This document shows positions 10,971 to 19,153 of a stretch of 38,635 nt of DNA, one piece after another (the stretch's first letter is position 1; the number at the start of each line of letters is the position of its first letter). Position numbers and translations under genes: made by a program. The notes below the pieces were generated by a model. The model made no database searches and was not told the DNA's origin. It was given only the letters and a program-made list of their open reading frames with translations. The stretch is from Pseudomonadota bacterium (GTDB lineage: Bacteria > Pseudomonadota > Alphaproteobacteria > Acetobacterales > Acetobacteraceae), in assembly GCA_021798575.1 (NCBI GenBank), contig JAJZGI010000017.1, forward strand, positions 1 to 38,635. Direction: 5' to 3'.

Positions 10971-11896
10971 ACAAGGTCGCATTTAGTGACGCCGCGCAGG
11001 CGCTGGCGCTCCGCGCCGTGGTCGGTTTTATACGGCGGCGGACGCCTGCCGGTGCCTCGCGGCTGGGCGGAGGCATTGCCCGCTGGATCGGCCCGTGGCT
11101 GCCCACCTCGCGCGTGGCGGCGCAGAATCTGCGCATGGCGATGCCTGAGCTTGGTGCCGCCCAGCACAAAAGAATCATCGCCGAGGCATGGGAGAATCTT
11201 GGCGCCACGGCGGCGGAGTTGATGGTGCTCGGTGATCTGCGCGAGAGCGCGACCGGCCCCGGTTATGAGATGATCGGCTGGGATGAGCATGTGGCGCCGG
11301 TGCTGGCCAAGGGTGGCCCGAGCATCTCTTTCACAGCGCATATCGGCAACTGGGAGATCATACCGCCTGCCGCATTTGCGCGCGGTGTCGACATCGGGTT
11401 CATGTATCGCGCCGCGAGCAACCGGCACGTCGATGCGCTCATCCTGCGCCTGCGGGAGGCGAATTTTGGCCGCAAGATATCGATGTTTCCCAAAGGTGCT
11501 GTGGGCGCGCGCCAGGCCTATGCGCACCTGGTGCGCGGCGGGCATCTGGCGATGCTCGTGGACCAGAAGCTGGATAATGGCATCGCCGTGCCGTTTTTTG
11601 GCCGTCCGGCGATGACGACGCAGGCTATGGCGGCGTTTGCCCTCCGGTTCAGGTGCCCGGTGCTGCCGATGCATGTGGTGCGCGTGGGGCCGGCGCGGTT
11701 GCAGGTGATCTTCGAGCCGCCAATGGCGTTACCCGATACTGGTGATAAGGAAGCCGACATTCTGACCCTGACCACGCAGATGAATGCGGTGCTGGAGCGC
11801 TGGATCCGCGAGAAGCCCGGCGCCTGGCTTTGGCTGCATCGGCGTTGGCCCAAGGCGTGCTATCAATCAGCGGACCATAATAATTCGGGAGGATAA
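10967..11896 (+). CDS. LpxL-like lauroyl/lysophospholipid acyltransferase
   Basis: A 309-aa LpxL/HtrB-family enzyme, likely adding a secondary acyl chain to lipid A at the inner membrane. The catalytic H-x4-E is HIGNWE (about 125-130). Other hallmarks are VAAQNLRMAMPEL, MYRAASNRHVDALI, GHLAMLVDQKLDNGIAVPFFG (a family signature), and WLWLHRRW near the C-terminus. Stop TAA is one base before the next ATG. The gene order DUF374-waaA-lpxK-acyltransferase makes this a lipid A-Kdo operon. Confidence 0.9.
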   Translation: MNKVAFSDAAQALALRAVVGFIRRRTPAGASRLGGGIARWIGPWLPTSRVAAQNLRMAMPELGAAQHKRIIAEAWENLGATAAELMVLGDLRESATGPGYEMIGWDEHVAPVLAKGGPSISFTAHIGNWEIIPPAAFARGVDIGFMYRAASNRHVDALILRLREANFGRKISMFPKGAVGARQAYAHLVRGGHLAMLVDQKLDNGIAVPFFGRPAMTTQAMAAFALRFRCPVLPMHVVRVGPARLQVIFEPPMALPDTGDKEADILTLTTQMNAVLERWIREKPGAWLWLHRRWPKACYQSADHNNSGG

Positions 11897-11897
11897 G

Positions 11898-12605
11898 ATG
11901 CAGGTTGGCGAGGTCATGCATAGAACGACGGTTGCGGTGCAGCCGGGCACGCTGGTGGTGGAGGCGGCGCGGATGATGCTGGCGCACCGGGTGAGCGGGC
12001 TGCCGGTGCTCGATGCCGATGGCCGGCTGGTGGGCATGGTGTCCGAGGGGGATTTGTTGCGCCGGGCTGAACTGGGCACGGACGGCAAGCCCGCGGGCTG
12101 GCTGCGCGGGCTGCTGCTGCCCTCCTCCGTGGCGGCGGATTATGTGACCACCCATAGCCGCCATGTGAGCGGGGTGATGACGCACCATCCGGTGTTTGTC
12201 GCGCCCGATACCGAGCTTGAGGAGGTGGCGGAGCTGATGCTACGCAAACATCTCAAGCGGCTGCCGGTGTTGCGGGGTGGCGTGCTGGTAGGGGTGGTCA
12301 GCCGGGCGGACCTGCTGCGCCTGTTGGCCCGTAAAATGACCAAAACGCCGCAGGATACCAGCGATGCGGCGATCGGGGACTATATCAAAACCGAGATGAG
12401 TCATGCCCGATGGGTGCCGCGCTCGGGCGTCAAGATCGCCGTGCAGGACCAGGTGGTGCGGCTGGAGGGTACGATTTTCAGCGAGGATGAGCGCCAGGCG
12501 GTGCTGGTGATCGCCGAGAATGCGCCGGGTGTGAAGGCGGTGCGGGATCATCTCGTGTTTGTTGATCCGGGCTCGGGCATGGCTTTTGCGGGGGATGCGA
12601 ACTAG
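11898..12605 (+). CDS. CBS-pair and BON domain protein
   Basis: The 235-aa protein has CBS1 (VGEVMHRTTVAVQPGT to GMVSEGDLLRR, about 2-58), CBS2 (VSGVMTHHPVFVAPDT to GVVSRADLLRLLA, about 88-148) and a C-terminal BON domain (about 158-225: VKIAVQDQVVRLEGTIFS, AENAPGVKAVRDHL). CBS pairs bind adenylates; BON domains contact phospholipid or protein. It is soluble by sequence, and its partner is unknown. A strong GGGAGG site lies in the end of the acyltransferase gene, so it is part of that operon. Its stop TAG is the first three bases of a palindromic repeat. Confidence 0.88.
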   Translation: MQVGEVMHRTTVAVQPGTLVVEAARMMLAHRVSGLPVLDADGRLVGMVSEGDLLRRAELGTDGKPAGWLRGLLLPSSVAADYVTTHSRHVSGVMTHHPVFVAPDTELEEVAELMLRKHLKRLPVLRGGVLVGVVSRADLLRLLARKMTKTPQDTSDAAIGDYIKTEMSHARWVPRSGVKIAVQDQVVRLEGTIFSEDERQAVLVIAENAPGVKAVRDHLVFVDPGSGMAFAGDAN

Positions 12606-12706
12606 AGTGTTTTTCATCAAATGAAAAACACTTTAGTCATATTTTGGCGAGCAATTTCATTCATCTAATTTGAATTGGCGGTTCAAATTAGCTGCATATT
12701 GCTCTA
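12603..12706. repeat. TAG-bounded two-hairpin palindromic element, copy 1
   Basis: This 104-bp element begins TAGAGTG and ends TTGCTCTA. Hairpin 1 is AGTGTTTTTCAT (12606-12617), a 3-base loop, and its exact complement at 12621-12632. Hairpin 2 is CTAATTTGAA (12665-12674), a 7-base loop, and its exact complement at 12682-12691. Between them is TTTTGGCGAGCAATTTCAT, almost all shared with the copy at 14783. GAGCAAT and ATTGCTC pair around hairpin 2. It lies between convergent genes and supplies the CBS-BON stop codon. Confidence 0.85.
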
Positions 12707-12711
12707 GCGTT

Positions 12712-13137
12712 TTAATGGCGGGTTTTTGGGGACAGGCCGAGGCGAGGCATCTCGATCGCCGGGCAGCGGTCCATCACCACCTGTAGCCCGGCGGCGCGCG
12801 CAACGGCCGCGGCGGGTTCGTTGATGACGCCGAGCTGGAGCCAGAGGGTTTTTGCGCCCAGGCGGGTTGCCTCAAGCATGGGCTCCGCCGCTGCCGCCGA
12901 GTTGCGGAAGATCTCGACCATATCCAGCGGCGCAGCCTCCTCCAGCGCGGCGACCACGGTGCGGCCCAGGATGGATTGGCCACTGAGGCCAGGGTTGACC
13001 GGCGTGACCTCGAAGCCTTGGGCAAGCAGGAACCGCATGACCCCGAAGGACGGACGATCCGGCTTGTCGGACGCGCCGACCAAGGCGATCCGCCGCGTGG
13101 TGGTGAGGATGTGGCGCAGCGTATCGTCGGTGTGCAT
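12712..13137 (-). CDS. CoA-binding domain protein (YccU-like)
   Basis: A 141-aa single-domain CoA-binding protein: RIALVGASDKPDRPSFGVMRFLLAQGFEVTPVNPG (Rossmann start), then VDMVEIFRNSAAA and LWLQLGVINEPAAAVARAAGLQVVMDRCPAIE. Orthologs are widespread and mostly uncharacterised. ATG 13137 was chosen, with GGGGAAGAG just upstream; longer open sequence upstream overlaps the divergent gene and does not resemble the family. It is convergent with the CBS-BON gene, with the palindromic element filling the gap, and its stop TAA is six bases from that element. Confidence 0.88.
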   Translation of the reverse strand: MHTDDTLRHILTTTRRIALVGASDKPDRPSFGVMRFLLAQGFEVTPVNPGLSGQSILGRTVVAALEEAAPLDMVEIFRNSAAAAEPMLEATRLGAKTLWLQLGVINEPAAAVARAAGLQVVMDRCPAIEMPRLGLSPKTRH

Positions 13138-13171
13138 GTCTCTTCCCCGGTTGCCCGGCTGCTTGTAAGCC

Positions 13172-14785
13172 ATGCGCATGAGAAAAAACATCATCGGCGC
13201 CCTGTTGCTGAGCCTGGTCACGGTTTTATGTTGGGCAGCGGCGAACAGGCCCCAGGCGGGGGATGTTTCCATGCCCGCGGGCCGGTTTGAATCGCTCTCC
13301 TACGCGCCGTATCGGGCCTGGCAGTCCCCGTTGGATAAGGACTACCCGACCGGGGCGCAGGTGGCGCAGGATCTGGCGCTGGTGGCGACCCGGGCGAAGG
13401 CCATCCGCACCTATTCGGCGATCGAGGGCAATTATGACATGGGCACGCTCGCCAGGCAGGCGGGGCTGAAACTGTGGCTGGGGATATGGCTTGGCACCAA
13501 TCCGGCGCAGAACGCGCGAGAGATGGCGGCAGGGATCGCCCAGGCGAATGCGCATCCAAACACCATCATCCGCGTGGTGGTGGGCAATGAGGTGCTGCTG
13601 CGCCGCGATCTCTCCGTGCAGGACCTGATCGCGGATATCGACTATGTGCACGCGCGCGTGAAGCAGCCAGTGGCCTATGCCGATGTGCCGCATTTCTGGC
13701 GCGAGTTTCCGCAGGTGGCGCAGCATGTGGATATCGTAATGGTGCATATTCTGCCCTATTGGCAGAACCATCCGCTGGGCGTGCAGGCGGCGATCGACAG
13801 TATCCAGGGGACCATCAGTAGCTTCAGGAAGCTGTTTCCCGGTAAGGTGATCTGCATTGGCGAGACGGGCTGGCCGAGCCGTGGGCGCTGGCGCGGGCCG
13901 GCTGCACCGTCGCGCGTAAATGAGGCGGTGTTTCTGCGCGAGTTCGTGACGCTCGCGCGCCAGGAGGGGGTGCAATACAACCTGATTGAGTCGTTCGACC
14001 AGGTTTGGAAATATCAGGATGAGGGCGTCGCCGGGGCCAACTGGGGCATCTGGAACGCGCAGCGGGAGCCGAAATTCCCGTTGAACGGGCCGGTGACCGA
14101 GCGGCCGGACTGGCCTTGGTACGCCACCCTTGGCGTGCTGGCCGCGTGGCTGCTGTATGGCGCGGCGGGTTTTGGGGGTTTCCGGCTCGTGCTGGCGAGT
14201 TTTGCCCTAGGCAATGGTCTTGCCATCGCCTGCATGGGTACGCTGCCGCTGCTCTATGACCATTGGCTGGAGCTCGATGCGTTGGTGAACCTTCCATTGC
14301 AGTTGATTTTTGCCGCGCTTGCCGTCCGCCGCGCGGCAGCGGTGCTGCGGGGCGAGCCCGTGCCGCCGGTGACGAGCGGGGCGATGGTGCTGGCCGGGCT
14401 GCGCCGCGGCCGGTTGCGGCTGGATTATGGTTCGCTGTGGTTTATCTTCCTGGCCAGCGCCGCGATCTTCGAGGCGATGCTGGTGTTCGACGGGCGCTAC
14501 CGCGCCGCGCCGATGGCGGTGTTCATCATCCCCGTGATCGCCGCCTTGATGCGTTTTTCCACTCGCGACAAGCCGCGGCAGATGGGTTGGGAGGAACTCC
14601 TGGCGGCCTATGCGCTGGCGATTCTGGCGATCGCGGATTCGTTGATCGAAGGTTCGGCGAACCTGCAATTTGTGGCCTGGAACCTGGCGGCGTTGGTGCT
14701 GGCGGCACCCGTGATCATGGCGACGGACAGCAAAAAAGGCGCGCGCAGGTCGCGCGCTCTGAACCCGCGGCGCCGCGGATTTTAG
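13172..14785 (+). CDS. Membrane-anchored GH17 beta-1,3-glucan hydrolase/transferase
   Basis: The 537-aa protein has an N-terminal signal anchor (about 5-24), a GH17 domain facing the periplasm (about 35-320), and about seven membrane segments in the rest. The GH17 acid/base is E140 (VVVGNEVLL) and the nucleophile is E231 (CIGETGWPS). GH17 enzymes cut or transglycosylate beta-1,3-glucans. It is homologous over the GH17 part to the gene at 27526, which adds a GT2 synthase; shared stretches include AAANRP, IRTY and LPYW. This one has no GT domain, so it likely trims or cyclises glucan. The stop TAG is the start of a palindromic element. Its start is 34 bases from a divergent gene. Confidence 0.85.
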   Translation: MRMRKNIIGALLLSLVTVLCWAAANRPQAGDVSMPAGRFESLSYAPYRAWQSPLDKDYPTGAQVAQDLALVATRAKAIRTYSAIEGNYDMGTLARQAGLKLWLGIWLGTNPAQNAREMAAGIAQANAHPNTIIRVVVGNEVLLRRDLSVQDLIADIDYVHARVKQPVAYADVPHFWREFPQVAQHVDIVMVHILPYWQNHPLGVQAAIDSIQGTISSFRKLFPGKVICIGETGWPSRGRWRGPAAPSRVNEAVFLREFVTLARQEGVQYNLIESFDQVWKYQDEGVAGANWGIWNAQREPKFPLNGPVTERPDWPWYATLGVLAAWLLYGAAGFGGFRLVLASFALGNGLAIACMGTLPLLYDHWLELDALVNLPLQLIFAALAVRRAAAVLRGEPVPPVTSGAMVLAGLRRGRLRLDYGSLWFIFLASAAIFEAMLVFDGRYRAAPMAVFIIPVIAALMRFSTRDKPRQMGWEELLAAYALAILAIADSLIEGSANLQFVAWNLAALVLAAPVIMATDSKKGARRSRALNPRRRGF

Positions 14786-14885
14786 AGTGCTTTGCGTTGT
14801 CACGCACGCACTCTATGTTTTTTGGCGAGCAATTTCATGTGATTGGACTGAATCTGCCGATTCAATCCAATCACATATTGCTCTA
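14783..14885. repeat. TAG-bounded two-hairpin palindromic element, copy 2
   Basis: A 103-bp relative of the element at 12603. It begins TAGAGTGC and ends TTGCTCTA. Hairpin 1 pairs AGAGTGC with GCACTCT and, inside, GCGT with ACGC. Hairpin 2 pairs a 16-base arm starting GTGATTGG (14839) with one ending CCAATCAC (one mismatch), around a TGCC loop. TTTTGGCGAGCAATTTCAT and CATATTGCTCTA are identical to copy 1, but the arm sequences differ while still pairing. Its two ends form the stop codons of both flanking convergent genes. Confidence 0.85.
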
Positions 14886-15518
14886 ATCCTCGTGCGAATG
14901 CCCGTGGTTGTGCGGAGCCGGGGTGTCGCTCAGCATCTCGATCCGCCCGGTGATCTGGCCACCATCCTCCACCTGCAGGCGGCGGCATCGGGCGGTGCCC
15001 AGCACGCGGCCTGAGCCGCGCACGATGAGCGCGTGGCGGGCGGTGAGCGTGCCGTCGATCGTGCCGGCGACCTCGGCCTCATCGACCTCGACCTCGCCTT
15101 TGAACAGGCCGCCATGGGCGATGGAGAGCTCGATCAGGCCATTGACCATCGCGGCCTCCACGGTGCCTTCGACGACCAGGCGCTCGGCATCCTGCACGGT
15201 GCCCTGTACGCTGATACCGCGGCCGACGACGAGCGTGCGGCGCTGGCCATCCTCCCGCGCCCCTGCTGCGTTGCCGGGAATGCTGGGGCGGATCATCGGG
15301 TTGGCCGCTGGGGTGGCGGGCAGCGGCGGTGCGAAGGGTGAACGGGCCATGGGAAACTCCTTGAGGGGGGGTGAAGCGGGCTCGGGCTCAGGCTCGGGCG
15401 TGGTGGGATGTTCCGATTTCGTATCGGGGTCTGGATGTTGTGCTTGCGTATCGGGTGCGGCGGGTGGTGTGGCTACGACCGGTGGCGTTGGTGGTTCAGC
15501 CTTGCGTTTGTTGAACAA
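14883..15518 (-). CDS. Bactofilin family cytoskeletal protein
   Basis: Bactofilins polymerise without nucleotides into filaments that place cell-wall or envelope machinery. The protein (211 aa) has a Pro/Glu-rich disordered N-terminus and a right-handed beta-helix core (about 95-195) with repeats such as VQGTVQDAERLVVEGTVEA and ARHALIVRGSGRVLGTARC; the tail is His-rich (HNHGHSHED). The long form starts at TTG 15518, preceded by GGGAG, with MFNKRK resembling the membrane-binding start of bactofilins. A second start, ATG 15350 (MARSPFAPPLP), has a very good AAGGAG site and would give a 155-aa form. The stop TAG lies in the palindromic element. Confidence 0.87.
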   Translation of the reverse strand: MFNKRKAEPPTPPVVATPPAAPDTQAQHPDPDTKSEHPTTPEPEPEPASPPLKEFPMARSPFAPPLPATPAANPMIRPSIPGNAAGAREDGQRRTLVVGRGISVQGTVQDAERLVVEGTVEAAMVNGLIELSIAHGGLFKGEVEVDEAEVAGTIDGTLTARHALIVRGSGRVLGTARCRRLQVEDGGQITGRIEMLSDTPAPHNHGHSHED

Positions 15519-17925: not shown

Positions 17926-17974
17926 GACCCGGGTCACGCCCCCCCAATGGGGCGCTTTTCTTCTGTAAGGGAGA
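17926..17974 (+). promoter_or_regulatory. Structured serC leader with terminator-like hairpin
   Basis: A 10-bp palindrome GACCCGGGTC (17926-17935) is followed by a hairpin CGCCCC-CCCAAT-GGGGCG (17937-17954) and CTTTTC, then the ribosome site AAGGGAGAG and the serC ATG. The hairpin sits where it could terminate transcription or limit ribosome access. A 'serC' leader RNA motif is known upstream of alphaproteobacterial serC genes; membership is inferred from position and layout only. Confidence 0.5.
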
Positions 17975-17980
17975 GTTTTT

Positions 17981-19153
17981 ATGGCAGATTTTTCCGTCGC
18001 CGCCAAGCCGGTGGCGCGTCCGCAGAATCCTAATTTCTCATCCGGCCCCTGCGCCAAGCGCCCTGGCTATACGCTGGAGGCGCTCGCCGGCGCGGCGCTG
18101 GGCAGAAGCCACCGCGCGAAGGAGCCTAAGGCGAAGCTGGCCGAGGTGATCTCCCGCTCGGCTGGCATACTCGGCATGCCGGAGGGCTGGCGGTTGGGCA
18201 TCGTGCCGGGCTCCGACACCGGGGCGATCGAGATGGCGATGTGGTCCATGCTGGGCGCGCGCGCCGTGGATGTGCTGGCGCATGAGAGCTTCTCGGAAGC
18301 CTGGGCGACGGATGTGATCAAGCAATTGAAGCTGGAAGATGCGCGGGTTTTGAGCGCGGATTATGGCTGGTTGCCGGATGTCTCGGCGATCGATTTTTCG
18401 CATGATGTGGTGCTGGCCTGGAATGGCACGACCTCTGGCGTGTGCTTCCCGGGGGGTGATTTTATTGCGGCAGAGCGCGAGGGGCTCGTGTTCGCGGACG
18501 CGACCTCCGCCGCGTTCGCGATGGATTTGCCGTGGGACCGGCTCGATGTGGTGACATGGAGTTGGCAGAAGGTGCTGGGCGGCGAGGCCGGGCATGGGAT
18601 GCTGGCGCTCAGCCCGCGCGCGGTGGCGCGGCTGCTGAGTTACAAGCCTGCCTGGCCATTGCCGAAGATATTCCGCCTGACGAGTGGCGGTAAGCTGAGC
18701 GAGGGTATCTTCGCGGGTGAGACGATCAACACGCCCTCCATGCTGTGCGTGGAGGATGCGCTGGATGGTCTGCGCTGGGCGGAGGGCATTGGTGGGCTGG
18801 CGGGCTTGATGGCGCGCGCGCGGGCGAACCTGGCGGCGGTGGCGGGCTGGGTTGAACATAACCCGCGCGTGGCGTTTCTGGCGGAGCGAGCCGAGACGCG
18901 CTCTCCCACCTCGATATGCCTGGTGATGACGGCACCGTGGTTCGCGAGGCTGGATGCGGCCGGGCAGGCGAAGGCGGCGAAGGAAGTGTCGGCGCTGCTG
19001 GAGCGCGAGAAGGTGGCGCTGGATGTGGCGGCTTACCGCGACGCCCCCCCGGGCCTGCGGATATGGGGCGGTGCCACGGTGGAGACATCGGATATTCTGG
19101 CCCTGCTGCCGTGGATCGACTATGCGATCGATACGGTTTCGGCAGATTTTTAG
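17981..19153 (+). CDS. serC: Phosphoserine aminotransferase SerC
   Basis: SerC converts 3-phosphohydroxypyruvate and glutamate to phosphoserine, and also serves pyridoxal phosphate synthesis in many bacteria. The 390-aa protein is the alphaproteobacterial subtype: [20 protein letters not shown] at 17-36, [30 protein letters not shown], and the PLP lysine K197 in [15 protein letters not shown]. It lies 28 bases upstream of serA, which makes its substrate. The stop TAG opens the remnant TAGAGTGG. Confidence 0.95.

Follow-up and report, generated by a model that had tools for sequence, protein, structure and literature searches.

The Rhizobium-specific intergenic mosaic elements (RIME), reportedly to be credited to Osteras in 1995, are composed of two palindromes. 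By name and description only, as given in PMC2873474 and PMC2573895, these alphaproteobacterial intergenic mosaic repeats resemble a family of elements that we describe here from a 38,635-nt stretch of DNA (hereafter the window) of a bacterium of the order Acetobacterales, in which two copies lie on the + strand at 12603..12706 (copy 1) and 14783..14885 (copy 2). A further likeness, again one of description, is to the Caulobacter CcrM-associated intergenic repeats CIR1-CIR4 (Chen and Shapiro 2003, as described in PMC2229807 and PMC10969869), which are intergenic, occur in Alphaproteobacteria, measure about 110 bp, and consist of two long inverted repeats and a linker, with TA termini and, in one of the arms, a GANTC in or close to the loop. 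A review lists the target-site duplication of CIR as unknown and calls for a mechanism for their mobility (PMC2229807, section 7). The Streptococcus pneumoniae element RUP, along with other IS630-type miniature inverted-repeat transposable elements (MITEs), also shares with our family a length of about 107 bp, a TA target and ends like those of the IS630 family (PMC2229807). IS630 insertion sequences (ISs) themselves insert at TA and duplicate these 2 bp, which is the mark of the IS630/Tc1-mariner group according to a paper on ISY100 (PMC2170065), and a preference of IS630 for CTAG is cited in its reference list.

The two window copies are 104 bp (copy 1) and 103 bp (copy 2) in length, each beginning with TAGAG and ending with CTCTA, and each consists of two hairpins (1 and 2, in this order) joined by a T-rich linker whose last bases are GGC. 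Across the family the length is 103-106 bp, with no transposase encoded, as is expected of a short non-autonomous element and unlike the IS630 family. Our catalogue, which was compiled by regular expression and favours well-kept copies, holds 136 distinct elements at 197 places. GANTC is present in the apex of hairpin 2 in 95 of these 136 elements, including copy 2, and is absent there from copy 1 and 41/136. This absence sets the family apart from CIR as described in the review, as do its occurrence in Acetobacterales and, as documented below, its duplication of TA, its resemblance to IS630 at the ends and its placement in stop codons. Compared with RUP, the two termini here form separate hairpins and have few inverted-repeat bases in common. 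Matched by description, the family may be a variant of the described CIR-like two-hairpin repeats. We consider it likely, at a probability of about 0.78, that the family consists of non-autonomous miniature transposons belonging to the IS630/Tc1-mariner group, whose own ends rebuild the stop codons into which they insert. Such a reading would offer a mobility mechanism for CIR-like two-hairpin repeats, a question left open in the review (PMC2229807, section 7).

Evidence for mobility comes from sites that are filled in one genome and empty in another. Nine sites were searched as joined flanks in four genomes, and at two of them the filled and the empty version are set apart by one element and a duplicated TA. 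At the first, genome G011 reads ...CCGTTTC[element]... where G023 reads ...CCGTTTCTAGAAAAAG..., the two matching over 183 bp at 97%, with the single TA of a CTAG in G023 becoming two TA in the filled G011. The second, read from the sequence, has a single TA within CTTAGC (TTAG) in G011, and G002 is filled by the element together with another palindromic repeat. This other repeat (locus L063), about 60 bp in length (TACCAGCCC...GGGCTGGTA), shares its insertion TA with the element and has over 30 further short matches in G002. Six sites from G036, which with G026 was tried as a close pair, gave no spanning match in G026, G023, G002 or G011, and one more site (L074) was left unused, as G002 and G023 differ there and G023 carries yet another repeat.

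The target can be read from the ends of the elements. TA is preceded by C or T at 135/143 left and 138/142 right ends, giving a target of YTAR and element ends that read YTAGAG...CTCTAR, and five pairs of elements in tandem overlap by exactly the 2-bp TA. Related genomes also differ in which copies they hold. Between G021 and G007, which are about 88% alike, four of four G021 elements in one 19.5-kb stretch are absent from G007. Orthologs of the gene between copies 1 and 2, some of them a paralog, were found in 37/38 genomes; only 1 of the 29 ortholog loci examined has any element, and all ten loci carrying both genes of the copy-2 junction are without one.

Elements are placed at stop codons to a degree that chance would not readily provide. 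Gene calls were made with a simple open reading frame (ORF) picker based on GC content at third codon positions (GC3), with no gene finder, and 122 sites had enough flank for site statistics. At 64/122 of these a flanking gene uses the element's terminal TAG as its stop codon, and at 9 this holds on both sides; among YTAR sites that lie in neither ORFs nor elements, 96/535 are stops (odds ratio 5.0, p=8e-14). Counted by stop, 73 fall exactly at a terminal TAG and 4 elsewhere inside the element, and on this count we reject the idea that genes ending at the element are random truncations. Three of the four element ends in the window are stop codons. The terminal TAG of copy 1 (12603..12605, +) ends a CBS-BON gene at 11784-12605; that of copy 2 (14783..14785, +) ends a GH17-like gene at 13172-14785, and the other end of copy 2 provides, on the - strand (14883..14885), the TAG stop of a convergent bactofilin gene at 14883-15518 (all three from the ORF list, the sequence and Pfam).

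The likely reason for this placement is that the target is TA and both ends of the element continue with G, so that TAA and TAG stops are rebuilt. Wherever the element enters such a stop, on either strand, an in-frame TAG would always be left, so that genes would survive and such copies persist. TGA stops, which terminate 420 of the 737 called ORFs without an element, provide no target. In the filled/empty pairs, the stop at the first site is TAG before and after insertion, and at the second TAA (G011) has become TAG (G002) with an identical C-terminus. The placement may reflect an insertion preference or the loss of insertions elsewhere, and the data are compatible with either. Insertion into a stop codon that the transposon restores with its own end is a way for it to be harmless, the before and after having been seen at one site. 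In the limited literature searched, we found no earlier account of stop-codon self-repair or of the GANTC register considered next.

A possible origin of these ends in IS630 is suggested by comparison with ISs of the same genus, where a DDE_3 domain is present in 24/38 genomes at E<=1e-10. An automatic scan found TA-flanked ends that are both TAGAG at 7/31 IS630-clade loci, and all 12 loci examined closely have at least one TAGAG end; the 18 ends chosen in these 12 loci are all preceded by C or T, and a further IS copy (L388) has A before TA on one side. Element right ends have their terminal TAGA(G/T) in common with IS630 left ends of the genus. GANTC occupies positions 23-27 of the right end in 92/136 distinct elements and of the left end in 0/136, and it is in the same register in 7/8 IS630 left ends examined, a set in which L384 was picked from three candidates and in which L382/L392 and L394/L395/L397 are near-identical, leaving about four lineages. 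Among 1544 other 40-mers beginning with TAGAK, 62 have GANTC at 23-27, compared with a mean of 7.2 at other positions, in a null set that is contaminated, many of its members being uncatalogued copies or IS ends. The presence of GANTC in the hairpin-2 apex likewise exceeds the 9.9% of shuffled sequences, and it is found in 0/136 of the hairpin 1 plus linker segments. With the register matched, element right ends and IS left ends agree at 13.65 of 22 positions, where the other TAGAK sequences give 7.55 (standard deviation 2.28). In addition, hairpin 1 of one copy in G022 equals the first 19 nt of the IS right end in L394 (G018).

From these comparisons we infer that the elements are probably mobilized in trans by an IS630 transposase. 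Such an enzyme, perhaps of an IS lost from or unassembled in the genome of the window, would cut the element at TA and paste it into YTAR. Each terminus would be doubled into a hairpin, the arms changing as end sequences change and as hairpin modules are swapped between subfamilies, and copying from arm to arm may help to keep the arms palindromic.

Several observations weigh against an IS630-type transposon. The element's own two ends have only a few bases in common as inverted repeats (TAGA(G/T)...), and a long terminal inverted repeat is lacking. A readable empty site was obtained at only 2/9 sites queried, and none of the four G007 sites has a clean junction; one retains a stub resembling hairpin 1, so that loss is possible there. 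The genome of the window has no DDE_3 gene at E<=1e-5, and a second IS630 clade of the genus has different ends, TAGTGATTC. Moreover, the match of hairpin 2 to IS ends is practically the same on the right (13.62) and on the left (13.65), its mean is reached by 2.0% of the contaminated null (5.6% for hairpin 1), and few independent IS lineages stand behind the left-end count. Finally, the IS ends in G016, G022 and G007 are unlike the elements of the same genome, and the IS that matches subfamily type E is found in G018, a genome without an element match. The idea that each subfamily's arms match the IS630 residing in their genome did not hold.

A more elaborate version of the transposon reading would be a methylation-gated IS630-type family specialized in stops, in which TA-G ends rebuild TAG at TAA or TAG on either strand, one insertion can serve two convergent genes, the right-end GANTC couples transposition to both CcrM and the replication fork, and CIR and RIME are the same system. 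We put this forward tentatively, as a proposal that is rather less probable than not. The GANTC site would, speculatively, make the element end sensitive to methylation by CcrM.

The surroundings of the elements bear on an alternative explanation, namely that selection maintains them at gene ends for a useful role in the host, as an RNA or DNA structure such as a bidirectional transcription terminator or a stabilizer of mRNA 3' ends. Of the 122 sites, 51 lie between convergent genes, 53 in tandem gaps and 15 in divergent gaps, with 3 overlapping an ORF (119/122 have no overlap with a called ORF above 30 bp, and the elements are in this sense intergenic); the 567 control gaps divide into 90 convergent, 368 tandem and 109 divergent. 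The excess of convergent sites favors a host role, as does the run of T that follows hairpin 1 of type B, whereas the orientation within tandem gaps is even (28 same, 25 opposite), the relatives examined mostly lack the element at both window sites, and neither window element matches an Rfam family at the gathering threshold or at E<=5.

Folded as single-stranded DNA of the + strand, copies 1 and 2 give z = -7.1 and -9.6, respectively, with 0/200 shuffles folding as well. Copy 1 runs from TA to TA, has hairpins of subfamily A and matches the covariance model at E 9.5e-17; the fold places its hairpin 1, with 12 bp paired, at 12603..12635 and its hairpin 2 at 12649..12704, and leaves a TTC at 12656-12658 unpaired. 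Copy 2, also TA to TA and with subfamily B hairpins (E 8.5e-18), has hairpin 1 at 14783..14815, which was found by pattern match as well as by folding and is followed by the T-run, and hairpin 2 at 14827..14883 with its unpaired TTC at 14834-14836; GANTC occurs in this hairpin at 14850-14854 and 14859-14863, the latter being 23-27 bases from the right end. A first-pass annotation of the sequence had reported two elements of about 104 bp at these positions, with an arm of 12 bp in hairpin 1 of copy 1 and paired inner arms in hairpin 2, and on all of this we agree. What it took for a conserved unpaired core is in half of its length the base of hairpin 2: its GAGCAAT is paired with ATTGCTC at the terminus, which leaves unpaired only the 3-nt TTC bulge on the 5' side, after which the inner arms begin. 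Hairpin 2 therefore extends further than the annotation had it.

The same annotation had viewed the covarying arms as the signature of a selected fold, belonging either to an RNA or to mobile DNA that folds, for example a REPIN or a MITE. The arms are indeed compensatory. In the 20 copies from the window's own genome (G000, 2.37 Mb) with which the covariance model was built, 93.0% of 675 cells pair, compared with a mean of 79.8% in shuffles, falling to 31.6-42.7% when partners are slid by 1-3 columns, and changes on both sides are seen in 20/34 pairs; further pair types do not exceed those of shuffled sequences (310/500 shuffles reach the observed value). Much of the change is replacement of whole hairpins, as can be seen from the combinations of hairpin-1 and hairpin-2 types among 24 elements of the strict catalogue in that genome (A-A 3, A-B 1, B-B 4, C-C 12, C-F 4). 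The arms differ because subfamilies differ and hairpins get shuffled between them. In one element (L324) hairpin 2 is flipped, with the bulge on the other arm, and in two more (L321, L058) it has become a perfect palindrome through loss of the bulge, which suggests copying from arm to arm.

Mutation within subfamilies speaks more directly to a host role. In a burst of copies in G021 (27 of modal length among 32 distinct), rates of change are similar for paired and unpaired sites (0.041 and 0.049), and of the single changes 42 break a pair and 5 keep it as a wobble (0.11 observed, 0.14 expected). On the other side, type C of the window's own genome (n=7) changes less at paired sites (0.089) than at unpaired sites (0.143), and compensated double changes exceed independence both there (12 vs 6.43) and in G021 (19 vs 4.89), these being counts of inherited cells and not of events. 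Type A (n=2) was uninformative. After insertion, single copies thus bear few traces of selection for the fold. Given the exchange of whole hairpins and the single changes that break pairs, covariation by itself is weak evidence for an RNA and does not require one. On orientation and mutation pattern we set an RNA aside as the primary explanation and regard a structure kept for a host function as unlikely; the double-hairpin shape looks like a trait of mobile DNA rather than of a working RNA. More generally, caution is needed, as perfect covariation of arms can arise from mobile-DNA ends and exchange of modules without any selection for RNA.

Between the two kinds of folded mobile DNA that had been suggested, the elements fit the MITE. 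A REPIN- or BIME-like repeat moved by a Y1 (RAYT) transposase would account for paired short hairpins and a mosaic composition. Such repeats are composed of two opposite copies of one palindrome, whereas hairpins 1 and 2 are unlike each other in sequence and TA is duplicated, and on these two points we reject a REPIN, which we consider very improbable. No GTAG or CGTC tag was noticed, and no search aimed at a Y1 transposase was made.

The family has many members, as the first-pass annotation had expected of a real repeat, and neither of the outcomes it had named as counter-evidence, a lack of further copies or arms that fail to pair, was observed. The 12-mer GAGCAATTTCAT has 12 exact matches in the window's own genome and its reversed control has 0. 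The covariance model finds at least 43 distinct places there at E<=7.1e-6, a lower bound as 150 of 513 candidates were scored, and one that includes the 20 model copies, which match by construction. Among 61 genomes, matches occur in 29, namely that of the window and 28/36 others of the genus, with 3 to over 60 copies in some; the model gave no match in the remaining 8/36 or in 24/24 genomes of the same class. A broader sample of 289 genomes of the class, with only 13 candidates scored per genome, yielded matches in 7 including that of the window. An exact pattern scan of public genomes returned at least 115 stretches, and among the 80 matches listed all named genera belong to what we take to be Acetobacterales (three were looked up), the rest being metagenome-assembled genomes. 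One element gave no match in a plasmid collection in two queries, and one gave none in a phage collection in a single query.

The six other matching genomes of the class sample belong to other families and have hairpin-2-like or two-hairpin repeats with a bulge of the same kind. Their wider occurrence is compatible with the elements being a CIR repeat proper, moved by an enzyme yet to be named, with the IS630-like ends a convergence on TA targeting, and the size, the two arms and linker, the TA ends and the GANTC near the loop fit the published description of CIR (PMC2229807, section 7). Convergence on TA alone does not predict that element right ends and IS630 left ends have GANTC in the same register, and we judge this explanation to be quite unlikely.

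Some related sequences depart from the standard architecture. Several of the hairpin-2-like repeats from other families of the class (L414-L421) have GAACC in place of the GANTC of Acetobacterales. In the window's own genome, one contig end (L343, G000:C93:1-420) has about five head-to-tail units of 63 bp that are of the hairpin-2 type alone. At two further loci (L342, L348) a hairpin 2 of another type is joined to unrelated left hairpins, forming wider mosaic repeats. Elsewhere in the window, a serC leader (RF00517, 42.3 bits) is found at 17927-17979 (+), directly upstream of an ORF at 17981-19153.

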